Part shown: positions 1 through 41,893 of the stretch, in pieces
Layout of the letters: every line of letters begins with the position of its first letter
How positions within the stretch are numbered: position 1 is the first letter of the stretch
Origin: a virus
Direction: 5' to 3' (one strand)
IMG/VR virus record: IMGVR_UViG_3300027806_000011
Coordinates: 1 to 41,893 of that record
DNA length: 41,893 nucleotides
Position numbers and translations under genes: made by a program
Notes under the pieces: model-generated
Seen by the model: the letters and a program-made list of their open reading frames with translations, nothing else
What the model was told of the DNA's origin: nothing
Database searches by the model: none

Positions 1-127
1 ATAGCATAAAGAAACTTCTTAGCCTGCTCTTGGGTTTTGGAAATAACAATGACATTGATGTTTGGATTTTTGACTACGCGGTAGGTCACGTAGTTAATCG
101 TGATGGTCATAGTCTTGGCATGGTTTG
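1..127. repeat. Terminal direct repeat, left copy
   Basis: Bases 1-127 are identical to 41767-41893. An exact 127-base overlap is what an assembler leaves at the ends of a circular or circularly permuted contig. It lies inside the terminase gene, so it is more likely an assembly overlap than a biological terminal repeat. The unique genome length is then 41,766 bases. Confidence 0.95.
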
Positions 128-1227: not shown

Positions 1228-1257
1228 AGAATACACGATGAGCCCCACCCCTGTCAA
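1228..1257 (-). promoter_or_regulatory. Leftward sigma-70-type promoter
   Basis: On the minus strand TTGACA (1257-1252), an 18-base spacer, then TATTCT (1233-1228). The perfect -35 and reasonable -10 lie about 50 bases before the start of the 908-1177 gene. Confidence 0.65.
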
Positions 1258-1395
1258 ATCTGGCTGTCTGGCTGAGCGTAAATACGGCGTGTCTAACGTG
1301 ACCCATGGCGTTACACATGACCCGACACACATGGCACATGACATACACGCCACACCCACATCACGCGCCTGTCTACACGCATAGCGTATGTGCTA

Positions 1396-1425
1396 TTGAC
1401 AGCTCGCACGTGCATGGGCTAATCA
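1396..1425 (+). promoter_or_regulatory. Rightward early promoter, sigma-70 type
   Basis: TTGACA at 1396-1401, an 18-base spacer, TAATCA at 1420-1425. It would start transcription near 1432 and so place the first covarying hairpin (1450-1468) close to the 5' end of the early mRNA. It has the same -35 and spacer length as the divergent leftward promoter. The 340 bases between the two start codons hold these promoters, CACATG-like repeats (1310-1350) and no gene. Confidence 0.65.
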
Positions 1426-1441
1426 TTGCGTATACACACAT

Positions 1442-1476
1442 CTCAAGATAGCAGAACGTAGTTCTGCTTATATATG
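1442..1476 (+). repeat. Covarying hairpin element, copy 1
   Basis: CTCAAGAT, then stem AGCAGAAC (1450-1457), loop GTA, stem GTTCTGCT (1461-1468), then TTATATATG. One of four copies in which flanks and the outer stem are conserved while the inner stem changes on both sides together. It sits in the 5' leader of the early operon; a second 5-bp hairpin (1485-1499) follows before the ribosome binding site. Confidence 0.75.
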
Positions 1477-1516
1477 TCGAGCCAGTCGGAAATCCCGACG
1501 GCAGAAAGGAACCACC

Positions 1517-1762
1517 ATGAGAAAAGTAGCAACCGAAACCCTGAACGGTGTCGTGAAGAACGGCACTGTCCACATCTCCAAGGCAGACGACAAGCGCGTC
1601 TTCGCCAAGGTCCGCATCACCACACCAACCGCCAAATCTTCGAAGAAGATTGAGGCAATCCTCAAGGCGATGGGGCAATACCCAAACTTTGACAAGGTTC
1701 TCGCAGCCGTGCTCAAGGTCGAACCAAACGCATACGTAACACTGAAAGGCGGTGCTCGCTAA
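1517..1762 (+). CDS. Hypothetical protein, 81 aa, first early gene
   Basis: Starts at ATG 1517 after AAAGGA. Small basic protein beginning MRKVATETLNGVVKNGTVHI, with several short strands then a Lys-rich helix (SSKKIEAILKAMG). No family recognised. It is the first gene after the early promoter and the 5' hairpin, a position typical of highly expressed early host-takeover proteins, but no function can be read from the sequence. Its stop overlaps the next start (TAATG). An internal 7-bp hairpin with GAA loop lies at 1635-1651. Confidence 0.8.
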   Translation: MRKVATETLNGVVKNGTVHISKADDKRVFAKVRITTPTAKSSKKIEAILKAMGQYPNFDKVLAAVLKVEPNAYVTLKGGAR

Positions 1763-1938
1763 TGAGTAACGACACAGCACTATCTATCTTGCTTGTTTGC
1801 CTATTGGCAATGACGTTCATGATTGGTGCTCTTATGGGCATGATGCGACGCGACACAGAGTGGCGCAGGCATCTCAAGATAGCAGACCAAAGGTCTGCTG
1901 ATATAGACAACCACTGGGAAACGACAATTCGTGGCTAG
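1762..1938 (+). CDS. Small membrane protein, 58 aa
   Basis: ATG 1762 overlaps the previous stop by one base, so translation is probably coupled. Residues 7-28 (LSILLVCLLAMTFMIGALMG) form one hydrophobic membrane segment, followed by a positively charged Arg-rich stretch and a polar tail, predicting an N-out, C-in topology. No family recognised. The second hairpin element lies inside its 3' coding part (codons for residues 38-48), so the RNA element and the protein share sequence. Confidence 0.75.
   Translation: MSNDTALSILLVCLLAMTFMIGALMGMMRRDTEWRRHLKIADQRSADIDNHWETTIRG
1873..1905 (+). repeat. Covarying hairpin element, copy 2
   Basis: CTCAAGAT, then AGCAGACC (1881-1888), loop AAA, GGTCTGCT (1892-1899), then GATATAG. 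The stem differs from copy 1 at an inner pair with the matching change on the other arm. Unlike the other copies it lies inside a coding region. Confidence 0.75.
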
Positions 1939-2017
1939 TGAATCAACCAACCCGACGGAGGTGGTCATCAAATGCGGTGACTGCCTCCGTCCCGAATGTA
2001 AAGGATGTGAGTACTGA
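1931..2017 (+). CDS. Micro-protein with two CxxC pairs, 28 aa
   Basis: Frame from GTG 1931 to TGA 2015-2017, overlapping the neighbours on both sides (8 bases with the gene before, TGATG with the gene after). The second half reads KCGDCLRPECKGCEY, two CxxC pairs that could hold one zinc ion. The tight overlaps and the cysteine pattern argue for a real gene, but the start is GTG with only a weak GGGA upstream. No family recognised. Confidence 0.5.
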   Translation: MASESTNPTEVVIKCGDCLRPECKGCEY

Positions 2018-2361
2018 TGGAACGCAATTGGTGGGAGATTCCCGCTGTCAAATCAATGAGCGACGTAGTCGCTGAGCAATTCGCAAATGACTGGCTATTG
2101 GTCGTTGAAAACGACCATGAAATGTGGACTCAACTAGTTGACGATGTCAAAGAGTTGGACTGCAACCAAGTAGCGGTGACCGCATACCTGCGCGAAGAGT
2201 GGGATGTACTCATCGACCAAATGGAAACGCAAGTTTCCAAGATTTCTGACGTGGCTGGATTACTGCTACGCCAGATGCTCGTGATGGGCGACCGCCCATT
2301 CGAGTTGATTGCTAATCATGTGATTAGCACTGTCAAAGAAATGGAGGCACACAATGCCTAA
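2017..2361 (+). CDS. Hypothetical acidic helical protein, 114 aa
   Basis: ATG 2017 with GGATG upstream and a one-base overlap with the previous stop. Strongly acidic, Trp-rich at the N-terminus (MERNWWEIPAVK), and mostly helical (VAEQFANDWLLVVENDHEMW, then a long helix to the C-terminus). No family recognised; acidic helical early phage proteins often bind host proteins or mimic DNA, but that is only a class resemblance. The coding region holds four perfect short hairpins (2099-2117, 2222-2239, 2284-2299, 2311-2328). Confidence 0.8.
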   Translation: MERNWWEIPAVKSMSDVVAEQFANDWLLVVENDHEMWTQLVDDVKELDCNQVAVTAYLREEWDVLIDQMETQVSKISDVAGLLLRQMLVMGDRPFELIANHVISTVKEMEAHNA

Positions 2362-2572
2362 GTACCTGGTATGGCAAGAACGCTCGTTCAGTTTCTACCA
2401 AGAGGTAGAAGCACCGAGCCGAGGTGAAGCAATCAACATCGCCGAAGAGCGTGGCGAATGGGAGCGCGACGACTCTCAGTCCGACATCGTGTACCACTAC
2501 GAGGTCGAACTCGTACCTAACCAACCTGAGGTCGATGACCTCATCAAATCAGAGGAGGAAAACAATGGGTAA
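2354..2572 (+). CDS. Hypothetical protein, 72 aa
   Basis: ATG 2354 overlaps the previous gene by eight bases and is preceded by GGAGG. It begins MPKYLVWQERSFSFYQEVEA, a strand-strand-helix start that continues with EAINIAEERGEW, then a strand and an acidic tail (EVDDLIKSEEENNG). This pattern is common in small phage proteins of unknown role; no family can be named. Hairpins at 2393-2410 and 2527-2543. Confidence 0.78.
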   Translation: MPKYLVWQERSFSFYQEVEAPSRGEAINIAEERGEWERDDSQSDIVYHYEVELVPNQPEVDDLIKSEEENNG

Positions 2573-2852
2573 CAACATGTCGCAAGACCTAGCAGAGAAT
2601 GTCATAGACATTCGGCAATCAATCACCATCCAGTTGCGAAGCAACCACTATCCACCAGTACCACTATCCATGGTGGAACCATGCATCGAGGCAATCTATG
2701 CGGTATCAGAAGGCGATACGCAGAGAGCAATCCAACTACCCGACGGCGTAACGTGGCGTGGCTCAGTGACAGCGCCTGCGTATGCGATAGTCGAAGGGCA
2801 TCATCTTGGACCATGGTGTTCATACGATGATAGCGACCACGATGACTACTAA
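2565..2852 (+). CDS. Hypothetical protein, 95 aa
   Basis: I chose ATG 2565 over the longer frame from 2424 because GAGGAGG lies just upstream and the overlap with the previous stop is small. Residues 5-35 form a helix, 36-60 another (MVEPCIEAIYAVSEGDTQRA), followed by a strand-rich part and an Asp/His-rich C-terminus (SYDDSDHDDY) that could bind metal. No family recognised. Hairpins at 2597-2613 and 2669-2683. Confidence 0.78.
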   Translation: MGNNMSQDLAENVIDIRQSITIQLRSNHYPPVPLSMVEPCIEAIYAVSEGDTQRAIQLPDGVTWRGSVTAPAYAIVEGHHLGPWCSYDDSDHDDY

Positions 2853-3027
2853 ACACATCATGGACATGACGCAGGCTGAGCTCGCGCAGATAACCTGCTT
2901 CGGGTACGAGGGACATCCCTGTTCAAATCCAATGGATGAATATGGCTGTCGCAATTCCATGAAAGATAACGAGGCATTCTGTGCAGAATGCTGCGCCGAT
3001 ACTACCGATGGCATGTGCTGCGGGTAG
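2842..3027 (+). CDS. Cysteine-rich small protein, about 61 aa
   Basis: The frame ends at 3027. The start is uncertain: ATG 2806, 2827, 2842 or 2860 are possible and none has a strong ribosome binding site; 2842 overlaps the gene before by 11 bases. The conserved-looking part has seven cysteines (CFGYEGHPC, YGC, FCAECC, MCC), probably a zinc-binding fold. No family recognised. It is followed directly by hairpin element copy 3, and carries a 7-bp hairpin at 2974-2991. Confidence 0.65.
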   Translation: MTTKHIMDMTQAELAQITCFGYEGHPCSNPMDEYGCRNSMKDNEAFCAECCADTTDGMCCG

Positions 3028-3032
3028 TGCGT

Positions 3033-3068
3033 ATCAAGATAGCACATCAAAGATGTGCTTTATATATG
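3033..3068 (+). repeat. Covarying hairpin element, copy 3
   Basis: ATCAAGAT, then AGCACATC (3041-3048), loop AAA, GATGTGCT (3052-3059), then TTATATATGG. It sits in the gap between a stop codon and the ribosome binding site of the next gene. Confidence 0.8.
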
Positions 3069-3093
3069 GCAACCAACCGAAAGGAGCAACACC

Positions 3094-3465
3094 ATGAAAC
3101 TCAAGGCACTCAACGACAACTCAATAGATATCAACGGAACCTCATTACAAGGCTACATCACGATGACCCGACGCTCACTCAACAAGGCGTTCGGTATCGT
3201 CGAGCGCAATGAGTACGCCGACAAGGTCCAGTATCAATGGCTACTTCAGTTCGAAGTATCAGGACATCCCGATGTCATCGCAGACATCTACGATTACAAG
3301 GAGTACCAAGACATTGACCTCGATGCTGTGCATCGATGGCACATCGGTGGCAACTCACCACTGGCTGTTGCCTGTGTCTACGCAGCACTCAACAATCGTG
3401 GCGCACTGACCATAGTGCCAGACGATTTCATCTCATACGACAAGGTATTTGTTACAAACAAATAA
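3094..3465 (+). CDS. Hypothetical protein, 123 aa
   Basis: Starts at ATG 3094 with AAAGGAG upstream; the longer frame from 3055 would begin inside the hairpin element. The protein starts MKLKALNDNSIDINGTSLQG and alternates short strands and helices; it is acidic in the middle (ADIYDYKEYQDIDLDAVHRW). No family recognised. It opens the second segment of the early operon after hairpin element 3 and is followed, 14 bases later, by the GP88 gene, with which it is probably co-translated. Confidence 0.8.
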   Translation: MKLKALNDNSIDINGTSLQGYITMTRRSLNKAFGIVERNEYADKVQYQWLLQFEVSGHPDVIADIYDYKEYQDIDLDAVHRWHIGGNSPLAVACVYAALNNRGALTIVPDDFISYDKVFVTNK

Positions 3466-3479
3466 CGAAAGGAGAAGCA

Positions 3480-4187
3480 ATGCCCAAACTCAAACGGTCT
3501 AATGACCGCAAGGTAACCAACATGGCAACACCGAATGGCAAGCGGTCAGCGCTAGCCAATACGTTCGGTCTGCCTAGTGGTAAGCAGTACTCATGTCCCT
3601 ACGCAACCAGCATCTGCGAGAAGATTTGCTACGCAGGTAAACTGGAAAAGATGTACACCTCGGTTCGTGAAGTGTTACTTCACAACTGGAATGCGTTACG
3701 CAACGCCGACAAGTACGACATGTGGGCAATGCTTGACACCATGATTCTCGATTTCAAATCAGACTGTGACACCAAAGGTGTCAAGAAATTGTTCCGCATC
3801 CACTGGGATGGTGACTTCTTCAATGCCGATTACATCTGGGCGTGGAAGGTAGTCATCGAGAACAACACCGACACTCAGTTCTGGGTGTACACACGCAACC
3901 CTGACGCAGCTCGTGCGTTACGTGACATTCCCAATCTCTCGCTGTATTACTCTGCAGATGCAGAGAACTGGGAATTTGCACCGCAAGGTGTGAAGATTGC
4001 ATACCTTGGTGACACCTTCGGTGCTGCCAAGCAAGCAATGCTAGCCATGACAGGCAAGCCAGGTGCTTCCTGTCCCGAACAACTCAAGCGCATCCCACTC
4101 ATCTCCGAAAAGGGTGGAGCCTGTGCGGTATGCCGTCTATGTATAGACGGTAAGTCCGACATCCGATTCAGTATCAGCAAACGATAG
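3480..4187 (+). CDS. GP88-like phage protein, 235 aa
   Basis: ATG 3480 with AAAGGAG upstream. The protein shows the pattern of the mycobacteriophage gene-product-88 family: a Ser/Asn-rich start, FGLPSG, then CPYATSICEKICYAG with four clustered cysteines near residues 38-51, a conserved helix with Asn (HNWNALRNADKY), FRIHWDGDFFNADYIWAW, a strand with YTRNP, and a final cysteine cluster (CAVCRLC). The cysteines could hold iron-sulfur or zinc. The family's biochemical role is unknown to me. It is common in phages of Actinobacteria, which fits the WhiB gene elsewhere in this genome. Hairpins at 3667-3683, 3767-3783, 3950-3965 and 4133-4150 lie within it. Confidence 0.75.
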   Translation: MPKLKRSNDRKVTNMATPNGKRSALANTFGLPSGKQYSCPYATSICEKICYAGKLEKMYTSVREVLLHNWNALRNADKYDMWAMLDTMILDFKSDCDTKGVKKLFRIHWDGDFFNADYIWAWKVVIENNTDTQFWVYTRNPDAARALRDIPNLSLYYSADAENWEFAPQGVKIAYLGDTFGAAKQAMLAMTGKPGASCPEQLKRIPLISEKGGACAVCRLCIDGKSDIRFSISKR

Positions 4188-4195
4188 GAGCAAAC

Positions 4196-4501
4196 ATGGA
4201 ACCATCATTTCGAATAGCACAAGTAGAAACTCTACTTACCTCATACACAGACGCAGTACATCGCAGTGGCATGGGCGACCTTGCCATATGGCAAAGCCTC
4301 GACTCTATCTATACACGACCAGACAACTACGAACTAGTGCTCACGTCCACACGTGAAGAAGCCTTTGACCGTATGGTCAAGGACAACTGGCACGTATATA
4401 TGGGCGACCACTTCTTCGGCATCGACTATGAAACTGTCGATGAAGAAGTACTGAAGTACCTAGTCGACAACCAACTCGTCACTCGCGTAGACGAATCTTG
4501 A
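4196..4501 (+). CDS. Hypothetical protein, 101 aa
   Basis: ATG 4196, with TAGGAGC between it and the previous stop. The protein begins MEPSFRIAQVETLLTSYTDA and looks helical with a Tyr/Asp-rich second half (DHFFGIDYETVDEEVLKYL). No family recognised. Its stop codon is formed inside hairpin element copy 4, so the end of the gene and the RNA element overlap. Internal hairpins at 4221-4237 and 4341-4356. Confidence 0.78.
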   Translation: MEPSFRIAQVETLLTSYTDAVHRSGMGDLAIWQSLDSIYTRPDNYELVLTSTREEAFDRMVKDNWHVYMGDHFFGIDYETVDEEVLKYLVDNQLVTRVDES

Positions 4502-4532
4502 TAGCACATCAAAGATGTGCTTTATATATAGG
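4495..4532 (+). repeat. Covarying hairpin element, copy 4
   Basis: ATCTTGAT, then AGCACATC (4503-4510), loop AAA, GATGTGCT (4514-4521), then TTATATATAGG. Here the left flank makes TTGATA, 18 bases before TTATAT, so this copy alone also resembles a sigma-70 promoter with the inverted repeat between the two boxes. Confidence 0.8.
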
Positions 4533-4562
4533 AAGCAAGACCCAACCAAAGGAGGCAACACA

Positions 4563-5015
4563 ATGGAAACAATCACAGAAGCAACCGAGTCACCCAAGGT
4601 ATTGGTTGACGAAATCAAGGAACAAATAGCAACACTCGAAGCACAGGTCAACACACTGCGTGACTCACTCTACCGAGAGCGAGCTCATGTACGTGACCTC
4701 TTCACTGCAATCAACGATGACATCGAGTCCAATGATTGGAACGAAGAGGACACGATTACACTCAAGGAAGTCAGCGACTACCTTGAAGCAGCGTTCTCTA
4801 GTCAACTCGTATTCACTAAAGAATACGAAGCGTTTGTTGAGTTCACTGTCAAGACCACCGTCAAGTACAGGTCAGAGAATGCAGAATCTGCACAAGAAAT
4901 TGCCGACTCTATCGGGCTGGACATGGATGACAGTGATGTCAACTACGATGGCGAGGCAGAAGTCAGCGAGTTCTGGGTTGAAAGCACACGAGTCCTATCC
5001 GTAGAAGAACAATAG
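4563..5015 (+). CDS. Hypothetical coiled-coil protein, 150 aa
   Basis: ATG 4563, preceded by AAAGGAGG; the longer frame from 4515 starts in the hairpin. Residues 10-48 (VDEIKEQIATLEAQVNTLRD and on) have heptad spacing of a coiled coil. The rest is acidic, with a strand region (YEAFVEFTVKTTVKYRS) and an Asp-rich stretch (GLDMDDSDVNYDGEAE) that could bind calcium. No family recognised. It lies first after hairpin element 4. An 8-bp hairpin is at 4807-4828. Confidence 0.78.
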   Translation: METITEATESPKVLVDEIKEQIATLEAQVNTLRDSLYRERAHVRDLFTAINDDIESNDWNEEDTITLKEVSDYLEAAFSSQLVFTKEYEAFVEFTVKTTVKYRSENAESAQEIADSIGLDMDDSDVNYDGEAEVSEFWVESTRVLSVEEQ

Positions 5016-5315: not shown

Positions 5316-6284
5316 ATGACAACAACACGCAGAATGTCAGCAAGTATTGCTGGCTCAGCAGTAACCGCAACATCCGCACAAGACGCAGCACAACAGGCTG
5401 GTCTTGACTGGCACGTATCGCTGGCTGACCTTGAAGCCCTAGCAGTAAACGATGAGGGTGTCAGCAGACTCCAAGTACCAAGCACATTCGCAACTGTACG
5501 TACCGACAAGGACGGCGGGCAGTCAGTGCTTGGCACTGTAGGTACACGATACCAAGTGTTTCAGAATGGAGATATGTTCTCTGCTCTAGATGCACTGGTT
5601 GATTCAGGTGAAGCACGATATGCAAACGCAGGTGAGCTGCGTGGTGGTGCTCAAGTCTGGATGCTTCTTGAACTTCCAAAGGAAGTCAAGATTGCAGGTG
5701 ACCCACATGCTGCTTACTTACTAGCACGAACCTCACACGATGGTTCATGCTCACTCGGTGTCACGCCAGTTGTGAACCGACTCTTCTGCTCCAACCAAAT
5801 CAGTGGCATCTTCCGTAAGGAATGTAAGTATTCCTTGCACCACACAACCAATGCCAAACTGCAGGTAGAGCAGATGCGTAAGATGCTTGACGTTATCTAC
5901 ACAGGTATCGAAACATATGAGATTGTCGCAGACAAGTTACTCAATGTATCGGTATCAGATACACAGGTGGAAGACATCTTCAAGAAGATGTGGACCATGC
6001 CAGCACTGGTCGAGAAGACACCGTACTTCAAACTCAGCACTGGTGAACGACGTACATACAACCGTATCACTGACGCTCGTAACACAGCGCTCAATATCTA
6101 CCAGCACAGCAGCACACAAGAGAACATCAAAGGTACTGCGTTCGGTGCGTTCCAAGCAATCGTCGAGTACCTTGACTGGAACTCACACAAGTCGGAGGCT
6201 ACTCGTGCAGAACGTGTAATCGCTGGCAAGTATGACCGACTCAAGAGCAAAGCTCTTGACCTAGTAACACAGGAGGTAGCGTGA
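5316..6284 (+). CDS. DUF932 / TIGR03299-type phage-plasmid protein, 322 aa
   Basis: Starts at ATG 5316 after AAAGGAA. The sequence matches the known pattern of the DUF932 family, often called phage/plasmid-like protein TIGR03299: an N-terminal region, VRTDKDGGQSVLGTVGTRYQ near residues 70-90, FSALDALVDSGEARYANAGE, GGAQVWMLLELP, then VVNRLFCSNQISGIFRK and a helical C-terminus. Members are frequent in phages and plasmids; their function is not established, though replication or recombination roles have been suggested. It is the longest early gene. It overlaps the next gene by four bases (GTGA) and carries an 8-bp hairpin with AAA loop at 6241-6259 close to its 3' end. Confidence 0.8.
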   Translation: MTTTRRMSASIAGSAVTATSAQDAAQQAGLDWHVSLADLEALAVNDEGVSRLQVPSTFATVRTDKDGGQSVLGTVGTRYQVFQNGDMFSALDALVDSGEARYANAGELRGGAQVWMLLELPKEVKIAGDPHAAYLLARTSHDGSCSLGVTPVVNRLFCSNQISGIFRKECKYSLHHTTNAKLQVEQMRKMLDVIYTGIETYEIVADKLLNVSVSDTQVEDIFKKMWTMPALVEKTPYFKLSTGERRTYNRITDARNTALNIYQHSSTQENIKGTAFGAFQAIVEYLDWNSHKSEATRAERVIAGKYDRLKSKALDLVTQEVA

Positions 6285-9220: not shown

Positions 9221-9539
9221 ACTTAGCCCACACCCCACGCTGTACCATTAGTGCGATGATGGCGTAATTAGCCAGGTCAACAAACGAATCTTCAAGAGAT
9301 TCGTTCTTAGGTTTCTCTGACTTGGGACTATAGATAAGATTCTTTAATCTCTCTAGCTTGTCCGACATACGTACCATCAGCCCATTGGTTGCGCCACCTG
9401 GTGCATGCCAGATGTTGTATGGACCGTAATCAATTTGTTTCTTTACTAGAATCGCAAGCAATTCATCGTAGATTTTTTGAGCATCCTCTTCGAATTGCAG
9501 GATGGTGGTATCTTCAGACAACGAGCTCCCTCTATTCAT
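9201..9539 (-). CDS. DUF1599-like nucleotide-modification-associated protein, 112 aa
   Basis: The core (YGPYNIWHAPGGATNGLMVR, MSDKLERLKNLIY, NESLEDSFVDLANYAIIALM) matches DUF1599, also described as nucleotide modification associated domain 1, an all-helical relative of MazG/dUTPase-type pyrophosphatases. Such proteins probably act on nucleotides; the exact substrate is unknown. The listed start is ATG 9539. A TTG six codons later has a better ribosome site (GAGGGAG), so the start may be 9521. It overlaps the neighbours on both sides. Confidence 0.7.
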   Translation of the reverse strand: MNRGSSLSEDTTILQFEEDAQKIYDELLAILVKKQIDYGPYNIWHAPGGATNGLMVRMSDKLERLKNLIYSPKSEKPKNESLEDSFVDLANYAIIALMVQRGVWAKYAKKSE

Positions 9540-10179
9540 CCAGTGCGTTAATCAACTTAGTTAACGCTTGAGCTCCTTGGCTGACAATTATACTATTAAC
9601 GTCACTATCAGGCGGTAGCGACACGCGGATGGCTTGAGGTATTGCATCAGATAAACGGCGGGCTAGTTCTTGTCCTGGGTTGGAACCATCCTCTTTGGCA
9701 TCATTATCGGTGGCTATAACAACGCGCCCAATGCCGTCAAAACAACGGCTAAAGTGAGGCTTCCAAGCATTAACGCCAGCCACAGCGACAGCAGGATGAC
9801 CAGCAAGGGTAGCAGATATCGCATCAATCTCTCCTTCTACAATCAATACTTCATGGACAGCATGAAGGATAGCACTGACATTATATAGGTGGTGCTTCTG
9901 ACCAGTAGGAATCATATACTTTGGGTCGCCGTCATCTATACGGCGGAACTTAAATCCAACCACACCTGACTCTGTTATGTATGGGATAGATAGATGATGC
10001 TTCAACCTATCCTCATGACCAGGTGCAGGGTCAACCACATACCCAAGCTTGAATCGTTCGGCTCCATCAAGGATGCCACGCTTCTCAAGGTATGCCTCGG
10101 CTGGTGAACCAGCAAGGTTGGCATGATATGTGTTGGCTGCTTTAGTCCAAAGGTCTATGAGCTTTTGATTTGGTTTCAC
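9532..10179 (-). CDS. DNA primase catalytic part, TOPRIM domain, 215 aa
   Basis: GTG start at 10179 behind AGGAG. Residues 10-100 match the TOPRIM-N segment of DnaG primases (AYLEKRGILDGAERFKLGYV, LSIPYITESGVVGFKFRRID, KYMIP). Residues 111-170 are the TOPRIM fold: VLIVEGEIDAIS with catalytic Glu115, and VVIATDNDAKEDG with Asp158 and Asp160 for metal. It lacks the N-terminal zinc finger of a full primase; that is encoded separately at 10706-11035. It would make RNA primers for host or helicase-recruited polymerase. The proteasome-like gene sits between the two halves, with four-base overlaps on each side. Confidence 0.85.
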   Translation of the reverse strand: MKPNQKLIDLWTKAANTYHANLAGSPAEAYLEKRGILDGAERFKLGYVVDPAPGHEDRLKHHLSIPYITESGVVGFKFRRIDDGDPKYMIPTGQKHHLYNVSAILHAVHEVLIVEGEIDAISATLAGHPAVAVAGVNAWKPHFSRCFDGIGRVVIATDNDAKEDGSNPGQELARRLSDAIPQAIRVSLPPDSDVNSIIVSQGAQALTKLINALDE

Positions 10180-10709
10180 TTCTTCTCCTGCCTATGCACT
10201 ACGAAAGGAGGAGCAGTATACACATCATTCTTCGCTGCAATCTGCAGCGCTTTCTTCCAGTTAGCACCAGATGCGAGAGCACCTATGGCATAGGAAGACC
10301 CAGAACCTAAGCCATAGATGCCATCGTCGCGTAGGAAGACTGAGTACGTATCATCTACTTCATAGATGGTTCCATTCACAGCCATTAAGAAAAGGAATTC
10401 ATATTCATCTGTCTTCTCATCATGAATGAATCCGTTATCACGTAAGCATTCACGCATATTAGGAATGACGGTTGTAATCATAAAATGATATATGTCTTTT
10501 GTGTTAGCTGGTATGGCTGGTGGTTTCCATATGTGTTGGACTATGTCACATGGTTGAGTTGTGCCAGCACCAGCGATTAGAAACTTACCGCGCTTAGTAA
10601 TCTTAGTTACGATTGGATGTGAGTAAGGGCGACCCTTCTCAGTTGTAGTTCTACTATCGGCTGCAATCAAGCAGCCGTCTGGTTCTTGAATACCAATGAT
10701 TGTTGTCAT
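10176..10709 (-). CDS. Proteasome/HslV-like Ntn peptidase, 177 aa
   Basis: Starts MTTIIGIQEPDGCLIAADSR. Removing Met exposes Thr as N-terminal nucleophile, with Asp18 (Asp17 when Thr is residue 1) and Lys36 placed as in HslV and proteasome beta subunits. Near residue 140 GLGSGSSYAIGALASG matches the family's conserved Gly-Ser-Gly and following helix. These enzymes form ring chambers and degrade unfolded proteins with an ATPase partner; no such ATPase gene is seen here, so it may act alone or use a host AAA partner. The gene is wedged between the two primase parts with ATGA and GTGA overlaps. It has its own GAGGT ribosome site. Confidence 0.8.
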   Translation of the reverse strand: MTTIIGIQEPDGCLIAADSRTTTEKGRPYSHPIVTKITKRGKFLIAGAGTTQPCDIVQHIWKPPAIPANTKDIYHFMITTVIPNMRECLRDNGFIHDEKTDEYEFLFLMAVNGTIYEVDDTYSVFLRDDGIYGLGSGSSYAIGALASGANWKKALQIAAKNDVYTAPPFVVHRQEKK

Positions 10710-11035
10710 CGAACTGACCTCAATCTAGGTGGAGTCCAACGACTACTGGACTTGCGTCCACGTGTCGGAGCTGGGCTCTTCGACTCCTTACCTATGTTCT
10801 TCTCTGCCCATTTACGAGCGTCTGAGTATGTTAAGTTTTCACGAGCCATGACAATCTGTATACCAGCGCCACGTCCGCTGCATGCATAACATACCCAGAC
10901 ACCCTTCTCCGAATTAACCGAAGCAGACTTATGTGAGTCATCATGTACAGGACAAAAGATGGATTTGTCCCCACCTAGCGGTAGGTCTAATCCGTAATGA
11001 CGAAAGACTGCTTCAAGAAATTCGGGTTGGTTCAT
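10706..11035 (-). CDS. DNA primase zinc-finger part, CHC2-type, 109 aa
   Basis: Residues 22-60 carry the DnaG zinc finger: FCPVHDD (C28, H31), SASVNSEKGVWVCYACSGRG (C49, C52) and IQIVM, all in family spacing. In DnaG this domain reads the template and sits N-terminal to the TOPRIM core in one chain. Here the frame stops after a basic tail (PTRGRKSSSRW), and the core is a separate gene 530 bases on. The two proteins probably associate to give one primase. Confidence 0.85.
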   Translation of the reverse strand: MNQPEFLEAVFRHYGLDLPLGGDKSIFCPVHDDSHKSASVNSEKGVWVCYACSGRGAGIQIVMARENLTYSDARKWAEKNIGKESKSPAPTRGRKSSSRWTPPRLRSVR

Positions 11036-40379: not shown

Positions 40380-41893
40380 TCACAATCTCGCTATTCGCTG
40401 TGCAGCAGCTAAATCATCTAGGTTAACAATGTACCTATCTTCAATTTGCTTCTGAGGTGTAAATTCGTTTTTCAAAAAGTTTGGCACATTTGCTGAAGTT
40501 AATAAAACATCACGGGCTACGATTTCACAGAACCAGAGCGCCATCACAGCGTCCATCTTTAATCTCTTGCCTTGAACTCCTGGTTGCCAAACAACCAATT
40601 GTTCTATTAACTTTTTAATATGTTCATTACGTGAAGCATCTGGTAACTCAATCATGTTATCGCCAGCATGCTTCAAGTTGTTATTGTTACCGTCACGTTT
40701 AATGACGGTTCCAAATAACGGAGCCAGAGAAGCTACACCAAACTCTGGGTCTTGTTTATTATTACCTGTGTAGTGTGGGCGGTAGTTAATACCGCGGGTA
40801 GACAAGAAGTTTCTAATCTCCTCGTCCTGGGTTAAGAAAAGCTGAAATGCGTTGGATTCAACGATGACAGTATGAGGCTTGTAAGCATCCGTCCATTCTC
40901 GAATCAAAGACCGAATCGCTGCAGGTGTGGGGCTGCTCATGACGTGAACGTCCATGACATAGCGCTTGTGTGTTCTGCGGTCGACTGCGTAAGCAACTGC
41001 TGCCGTGTCACCAGACATGGCTGGGTCTATACCAATAATGCGATAGAAGTTCTGTGCATTATCAGGATGACCCGCAGCGCCTGCAACTAACGCACCCGAT
41101 TTTCTCATTCCGTTGACTGCGCCTCTGACGCACATCGGGTCGAAGATTGCATTCTCTGCGATATCGAGGTTCTGGTAAACCAAAGACCATTTGGAGGGAC
41201 CAGCCTCATTGCGGACCGCAGTAAGACGCGGTCCAGTCCATCGGTCAAAGAATCCATTCTCATCTGGGGTATCATCCTCAGTAAGTGGTTGCTCTGACTT
41301 AGCCCAAAGGGTTTTCCAATCCTTTGGATTGTCTGCGTATTCTAATACGGCAGGCATGGACAAATATGACCACGGAACAATTCCGTCCGTGTAATGTTGA
41401 GTGTTGCGAAGTTCTTTATATAGGTCGGTTGCAGATACGCGAGTTCCGACAACAAGAAGCTGACCCCCGCCTGGTGGTAGACGAGAGGCAACTTCTTGTC
41501 GAATCCATTCTTGTTGCTTAGCCCACTCTCCAGCGTTAGAGAGAGTGACCACGTCGTCAAGTACGATTAAGTCGGCGCGAGCGCCGTATACCTGACCGCC
41601 CATACCGATAGCTTCAACGGTAGGGTCTTTAGCATCTGATTCGCGGACATCCGCGCCCAGATAAACTTTGTTAGCCGACCACATGTCGGCGGTAGCTTTG
41701 TAACCATCGGTAGGACCAAAGGCTGCTTGTAGGTCTGCATACCGAGGATGAGTCAGGCGTTGCTTAATAGCATAAAGAAACTTCTTAGCCTGCTCTTGGG
41801 TTTTGGAAATAACAATGACATTGATGTTTGGATTTTTGACTACGCGGTAGGTCACGTAGTTAATCGTGATGGTCATAGTCTTGGCATGGTTTG
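40380..41893 (-). CDS. terL: Terminase large subunit, C-terminal part (starts at 503 across the join)
   Basis: Continues the chain that begins at 503. In full-length numbering: Walker B DLIVLDDV near 233-240, then a coupling region, and the RNase-H-like nuclease: IGIDPA with Asp415, TVIVESNAF with Glu471 and KMDAVMALWF with Asp573. These match the three catalytic acids of large terminases. It cleaves concatemeric DNA and pumps it into the head. The stop overlaps the portal start region. Confidence 0.93.
   Translation of the reverse strand, partial: NHAKTMTITINYVTYRVVKNPNINVIVISKTQEQAKKFLYAIKQRLTHPRYADLQAAFGPTDGYKATADMWSANKVYLGADVRESDAKDPTVEAIGMGGQVYGARADLIVLDDVVTLSNAGEWAKQQEWIRQEVASRLPPGGGQLLVVGTRVSATDLYKELRNTQHYTDGIVPWSYLSMPAVLEYADNPKDWKTLWAKSEQPLTEDDTPDENGFFDRWTGPRLTAVRNEAGPSKWSLVYQNLDIAENAIFDPMCVRGAVNGMRKSGALVAGAAGHPDNAQNFYRIIGIDPAMSGDTAAVAYAVDRRTHKRYVMDVHVMSSPTPAAIRSLIREWTDAYKPHTVIVESNAFQLFLTQDEEIRNFLSTRGINYRPHYTGNNKQDPEFGVASLAPLFGTVIKRDGNNNNLKHAGDNMIELPDASRNEHIKKLIEQLVVWQPGVQGKRLKMDAVMALWFCEIVARDVLLTSANVPNFLKNEFTPQKQIEDRYIVNLDDLAAAQRIARL
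41767..41893. repeat. Terminal direct repeat, right copy
   Basis: Second copy of the 127-base end repeat. Joining the two copies keeps the terminase reading frame open across the junction, which supports circular closure. Confidence 0.95.

Follow-up and report, generated by a model that had tools for sequence, protein, structure and literature searches.

A directional, strictly paired hairpin module in the rightward operons of freshwater phages, tentatively read as a DNA-hairpin promoter

Results

A hairpin element repeated in the rightward operon

The DNA analysed here (the window) is the whole of IMG/VR virus record IMGVR_UViG_3300027806_000011, 41,893 nt long. Its rightward genes, among which a GP88-family and a DUF932 gene, form an operon that, judging by the layout, would be expressed early, and four copies of a short hairpin element are dispersed along it (Table 1). 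All copies share the same plan on the plus strand, GAT followed by a perfect 8-bp stem with a 3-nt loop and by an A/T tract, and lie 31-48 nt upstream of start codons at 1517, 1930 (GTG), 3094 and 4563. Copy 2 resides inside the open reading frame (ORF) 1762-1938, shortly 5' of the small GTG frame, and copy 3 is 439 nt upstream of the GP88 gene. The pattern GATAGCA-N11-TGCT occurs in the record four times in the forward and never in the reverse orientation, and its reversed control not at all; about 0.02 occurrences of its 11 fixed bases are expected by chance. The four hairpins placed at these sites by the first-pass annotation, made on the letters of the window, are thus confirmed, as are the inner arms GAAC, GACC, CATC and CATC assigned to copies 1-4.

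Table 1. Coordinates of the hairpin copies and of neighbouring features in the window
Feature	Position	Strand	Sequence	Remarks
Copy 1	1447..1475	+	GAT; stem AGCAGAAC/GTTCTGCT (1450-1468); loop GTA; tract TATATAT	5' of first rightward gene
Copy 2	1878..1905	+	GAT; stem AGCAGACC/GGTCTGCT (1881-1899); loop AAA; tract GATATA	
Copy 3	3038..3066	+	GAT; stem AGCACATC/GATGTGCT (3041-3059); loop AAA; tract TTATATA	5' of gene at 3094
Copy 4	4500..4529	+	GAT; stem AGCACATC/GATGTGCT (4503-4521); loop AAA; tract TTATATAT	5' of gene at 4563
Second hairpin	1481..1502	+		first-gene leader, 3' of the tract and 5' of the ribosome site; relatives' predicted folds have wobble pairs and bulges
Possible rightward promoter	1396..1425	+	TTGACA-18-TAATCA	24 nt 5' of copy 1 stem; inconsistent among relatives
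Leftward promoter-like sequence	1228..1257	-	TTGACA-18-TATTCT	divergent region; 18 of 42 dereplicated regions have a comparable site
First rightward gene	1517..1762	+		81 aa, conserved; AlphaFold2 pLDDT 83
GP88-family gene	3480..4187	+		element 5' of gene in 60 of 64 testable loci
DUF932 gene	5316..6284	+		query that found relatives

Distribution among relatives

Relatives were retrieved by using the DUF932 protein (54 loci) and its alignment (80 loci, overlapping with the former); 87 loci, window included, were examined. Most lists of elements require the motif ATA[AG]CA, and thereby predetermine AT as well as stem columns 1, 3 and 4. Under this requirement the element is found in 73 of the 87 loci, and in at least 74 when locus L076, added without it, is counted. 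In relatives elements occur 5' of the first gene, of GP88 and of the DUF932 block, and no element lies 3' of DUF932 in any of the 87 loci, within the stretches covered. The first gene has an element 5' in all 37 testable loci. In these same loci, which have enough upstream sequence, the elements found before DUF932 are at least four (21 loci), three (10), two (5) or one (1). GP88 is preceded by an element in 54 of 64 loci by the ATA[AG]CA search, and in six more when the motif is left free and G.U pairs are allowed. These six have perfect 8-bp stems with arm AGCACATC, bordered by TTTT or CTT, not by GAT. No wobble version turned up at GP88 starts in this search. It follows that element counts per locus are lower bounds, and that GAT is the usual, not the universal, border. 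As to the remaining four GP88 loci, L134 has a perfect stem in another search, and none was found in L068, L069 and L070; a 6-bp hairpin with a TTCG loop lies in L069 and L070 about 60 nt 5' of GP88, where other relatives have the element.

Accepted elements are found on the mRNA-sense strand, 31-60 nt 5' of the start codon, and are followed by an A/C-rich leader, and then by a Shine-Dalgarno sequence. In a scan of viral contigs with a pattern fixed at the conserved positions only, the matches listed (69 loci, L209-L277) include elements with tract and leader, and these are paired at all seven inner positions; the phage group was judged here from leaders and not from proteins. Among the listed matches to the same pattern that lack the tract and leader context, 16 rows are not fully paired and two (L231 and L240) are. 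Loci numbered after L277 entered the leader folds, the analysis of GC content, the survey of upstream palindromes and the 200-context set described below. The scan of genome contigs gave a single distant match (24% identity). No such hairpin was seen in the cultured Planktophila phage F5 (OX376641), which shares homologues of the sigma factor, helicase, capsid and large protein. The window comes from a freshwater phage, and the group of phage contigs carrying the module is widespread.

Pairing is conserved, sequence is not

To look at the stem, 200 unique contexts were picked by ATA[AG]CA, TG[CT], an AT-rich tract and a ribosome site after it, ignoring pairing at columns 5-8. These columns are fully Watson-Crick in 177 contexts, and the other 23 have 0-3 pairs and resemble background; in the rows displayed, all 12 non-Watson-Crick cells at column 2 fall within these 23. 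Forty distinct stem/loop sequences were taken from contexts in which all of the inner seven pairs are intact. In this set the structure holds in 95.6% of the cells, versus 76.9% in shuffles, and only in 22-38% when the pairing partner is shifted. At the inner seven pairs 62 cells have changed on both sides, and no cell on one side only; pairing fails nowhere but at the outermost pair, at which A is fixed by the search and the partner is T in 26 of 40 sequences. No G.U pair is found in accepted elements, either in the 280 inner cells of this perfect set or in the 177 contexts. The elements have 16 distinct left arms. When mapped onto protein trees, arm changes are at least 14 before the first gene (47 loci), at least 14 at the last site (70 loci) and at least 4 at GP88 (54 loci), in sum at least 32, exchange between sites being possibly included. 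What is conserved is pairing, not sequence. The notion, put forward from the window, that compensatory changes preserve pairing is strongly supported in the relatives; absence of pairing conservation was looked for there, and pairing is kept, so the claim was not refuted.

Loops, stems and flanks

Excluded before the loop count were six matches in coding sequence (AACATCTT) and three on the minus strand, with loops of 5 nt; one odd context (AGCACCAC, loop GTTA) was left out of the flank counts and of the 130 contexts considered here. The conserved positions of the stem are columns 6 (98%) and 8 (93%), and loops vary. On the non-template strand loops are AAA (57), GAA (29), TTTA (16), GTA (15), TTC (7) and others (6); 17 of the 130 are 4 nt long. 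Each of the seven triloop types reads purine-N-A on one of the strands, and the pairs GAA/TTC and AAA/TTT resemble inversions. Purine-N-A triloops are of the kind stable in DNA mini-hairpins, and a groove carrying conserved stem columns is more readable by proteins in B-form DNA than in RNA. Neither GNRA nor UUCG loops occur among accepted elements, and ranking loops by folding energy gave no information, nearly all triloops being tied.

The 8 nt 3' of the stem are 85% AT, and the 7 nt 5' of it 75% (two of the seven being fixed by the search), in a genome with a GC content of 45.5%, as given by an analysis that also includes second-site contexts. The first 8 nt of the tract contain no C in 121 of 130 contexts. 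TTTT never occurs within 10 nt after the stem, five T residues in 8 nt are found in 12 contexts, and six in none.

Promoters and leader signals

Forty-two dereplicated first-site regions were scanned for TTGACA/TANNNT (12 positions). Matches at 8, 9 and 10 positions are 3, 2 and 2 in the forward and 25, 18 and 11 in the reverse orientation, against 14.7, 6.1 and 0.9 in shuffles. A host-type promoter is therefore present on the leftward side in many relatives, and none is consistent on the rightward side. A looser forward scan, allowing one mismatch in TTGACA and TA at 16-19 nt, scored 15 of the 42 regions versus 4.4 in base shuffles; the matches are at scattered positions, and several derive from an ATGACA repeat. 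The resemblance of copy 4 to a promoter (TTGATA-18-TTATAT), pointed out in the first-pass annotation, is real, but is not a common feature of the module, hairpins being preceded by TTGAT in 27 and by AAGAT in 61 of 130 contexts. TANNNT is found in 8 of 104 tracts only, which disfavours reading the module as a sigma-70/sigma-A promoter, and this candidate was rejected. Membership in an Rfam 15 family was similarly discarded: no match was found in the window at gathering thresholds, and none up to E 1 in the interval 1380-4600.

The second hairpin of the first-gene leader illustrates the evolution of an ordinary RNA hairpin in such leaders. It would be located close to the 5' end if transcription began right after the tract, and fits a longer leader as well. 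Minimum free energy folds of the leaders that follow elements contain wobble pairs in 35 of 50 cases, as computed by an RNA program biased that way. An imperfect palindrome like GGCTATTGATAGCTC is repeated 5' of element 1 in many relatives, in the divergent region (1181-1440 in the window), and resembles an operator array. Between the second element and the ribosome site of one group (5736-5790 in L082, and similar sites) there is a GC-rich hairpin with TCTTTT after it, which looks like an attenuator.

Genome context

The minus strand carries the genes for terminase, portal and capsid, a sigma-like factor with region 4, WhiB and endonuclease VII, and those of a DnaG-type primase, which is split at 9532-11035 between two genes, one for a zinc ribbon and one for Toprim. 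Neither a DNA nor an RNA polymerase turned up in the scan of proteins, small ORFs in part included. An identical 127-base direct repeat is found at both ends of the window (1-127 and 41767-41893). The record is probably a complete assembly, either circular or terminally redundant, and the terminase gene crosses the join. Compared with the terminase of Planktophila phage F5, the isolation of which is described in PMC10202952, the part present in the window shows 48% identity; with those of Streptomyces phages, one of which, Manuel, is classed in Beephvirinae, it shows about 44%. This similarity makes an actinobacterial host likely, as far as may be judged from sequence. The product of the first rightward gene is 47-94% identical across 25 relatives. 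It was modelled to seek a nucleic-acid-binding fold, and the model has no PDB fold match with E <= 0.001.

Discussion

A hairpin module is repeated in the operon in a fixed orientation, at short distances from start codons and with strict pairing, and no consistent host-type rightward promoter is found 5' of the first gene in relatives. Placed 5' of several genes of the operon, the module is probably an unusual start or control point for expression. Our tentative preference, held at somewhat less than an even chance, is for a directional, repeated, promoter-like unit of non-canonical type, recognised via a short DNA hairpin. A perfect palindrome with AT-rich flanks on both sides would extrude in negatively supercoiled DNA as a hairpin or a cruciform. 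The transcription machinery, either the host RNA polymerase with a putative extra factor or a putative phage polymerase, would read the bases conserved in the stem together with the GATA that usually borders it; the A/T tract would melt, and transcription would start slightly downstream, providing each group of genes with a short leader. The absence of wobble pairs, the conservation of stem rather than loop bases, the AT-rich flanks and the weak evidence for rightward promoters all lean toward a hairpin in DNA, and the location of copy 2 within an ORF counts in the same direction.

Several observations weigh against this view. TTGACA-18-TAATCA precedes copy 1, looser forward matches exceed shuffles, and a TANNNT -10 box is rare in the tract. 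Loops are not conserved as they are in phage N4, and the Streptomyces phage Manuel has wobble-containing stem-loops 5' of ribosome sites. The scan of proteins, small ORFs in part included, revealed no gene for an RNA polymerase. A protein of 1653 aa, aligned and compared with PDB sequences, has no PDB relative, and its low-confidence model (1191 residues folded) is mostly helical with no sign of a virion RNA polymerase. Template-switch correction of palindromes could also remove wobble pairs, but a general correction of this sort is unlikely, since the outermost pair is not formed in 14 of 40 sequences.

Promoter-like recognition of a DNA hairpin is hardly above the alternative that the element is a leader hairpin in the operon mRNA, marking the start of each segment and taking effect once processed or bound by a protein, through protected 5' ends, antitermination or control of translation, a possibility to which we give only slightly less credit. 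Promoters of the DNA-hairpin kind are far rarer than leader hairpins. Position on the mRNA-sense strand shortly before start codons, the A/C-rich leader with its Shine-Dalgarno sequence, and strictly maintained pairing all suit an RNA, as do the promoter-like sequence 5' of copy 1, the looser forward matches, the TTCG-loop hairpin of the two GP88 loci which have no element there, and the RNA-type stem-loops at the equivalent position in Manuel. The forward matches and the border variants slightly lowered our estimate for the DNA hairpin, and for the bolder proposal given below, and slightly raised that for RNA. What an RNA hairpin accounts for poorly is the complete lack of wobble, in the sequence-free GP88 check too, when most leader folds have it, along with the lack of GNRA and UUCG loops and the mostly C-free tract; mycobacterial RNase E favours cleavage 5' of C (PMC10641625). 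The first-pass annotation had proposed an RNA structure dividing the early mRNA into segments: by position the module does head groups of genes; that it acts as RNA is slightly the less likely reading, given strict Watson-Crick pairing and a tract devoid of TTTT and mostly of C.

The same annotation had offered an attenuator as one option, and this has been set aside, TTTT being absent after the stem. Copies 3 and 4 do pass a loose terminator scan, but copy 1 stands before the first rightward gene, and an intrinsic terminator or attenuator splitting the operon is very improbable. An operator, the other alternative of the annotation, is disfavoured, if not to the same extent, and we regard it as improbable. 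Operators are the commonest palindromes near promoters, half-site bases are symmetric, and an operator-like, imperfect palindrome is found further upstream; a dimeric phage or host regulator could thus bind AGCAnAnC half-sites at the four places. However, at the variable positions 5 and 7 the two arms are complementary throughout the 40-sequence set and in 177 of 200 contexts, and complementarity of variable arm positions to each other is not the mark of a simple operator. Loops of 3 or 4 nt would alter the spacing of half-sites, and three arm types in one window, fixed orientation and an often unpaired outermost partner are further points against it.

Hairpins read in DNA are known in phages. 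N4-type promoters have a conserved G-N-A loop on the template strand, and start about 11 nt from the hairpin centre. Such a conserved loop was not found among the 130 loops analysed. As in N4 early promoters, served by the virion RNA polymerase, a short stem, a mostly 3-nt loop and a blend of fixed and free-but-paired bases are found here; unlike in N4, the stem is 8 bp, the loop is variable and mostly purine-N-A on the non-template strand, the AT tract extends further, and the proteins scanned gave no match to a virion RNA polymerase. Given the unconserved loop, the longer tract and the lack of a recognised polymerase, the module has not been filed as a member of the N4 type. In N4 some stem bases are fixed and others free if paired, and extrusion is driven by supercoiling (PMC4496689). 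The target of the BPP-1 diversity-generating retroelement is likewise an 8-bp phage palindrome which may vary in sequence provided that pairing is kept, and extrudes in supercoiled plasmids (PMC3240598), but has a 4-nt GRNA loop, lies 3' of the variable repeat and serves another role.

Repeats before gene starts have been described in mycobacteriophages as well. Those of Cluster K precede non-structural genes, mostly in one orientation, and some include inverted repeats (PMC3203893). By their description they are set apart from the module: the ESAS, accompanied by a start-associated sequence, are imperfect 17-bp repeats, departures from which do not support pairing, and the short motif sits at the position of the ribosome site. 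Experimental proof of the role of Cluster K motifs was still called for in a 2025 survey (PMC12699233). The 17-bp palindrome of Cluster O phages (Corndog) has 7-bp arms and a 3-nt centre, mostly AAA or TTT (PMC4351075); unlike here, its arms are invariant at 34 sites, evidence for orientation is little, and copies are also found inside genes. No description of the element was found in literature searches, which were partly aimed elsewhere and extended to few subscription journals.

That the module represents a second, independent class of DNA-hairpin promoters, in which 8-bp hairpins extruded by supercoiling start rightward gene blocks in freshwater phages, probably of actinobacteria, is a bolder proposal, and we hold it doubtful. 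Were the DNA-hairpin promoter true, hairpin-read transcription would not be confined to N4-like phages; were the element RNA, it would be a leader family that Rfam lacks, from a lineage on which hardly any experiments have been done. Either way, a compact module with unusually clean compensatory evolution is carried by a widespread group of phage contigs. Manuel, a distant relative, also has stem-loops before ribosome sites, in an operon opposite to the structural genes. Unlike the module these are long and interrupted, with wobble pairs and UCCG/UUCG-type loops, and no shared sequence was noticed. On the minus strand of its genome (L104, NC_048685) about 11 of the 15 gene starts inspected by eye have a strong RNA-type stem-loop immediately 5' of the ribosome site; these stem-loops differ in sequence between genes, and several have UCCG or UUCG loops.

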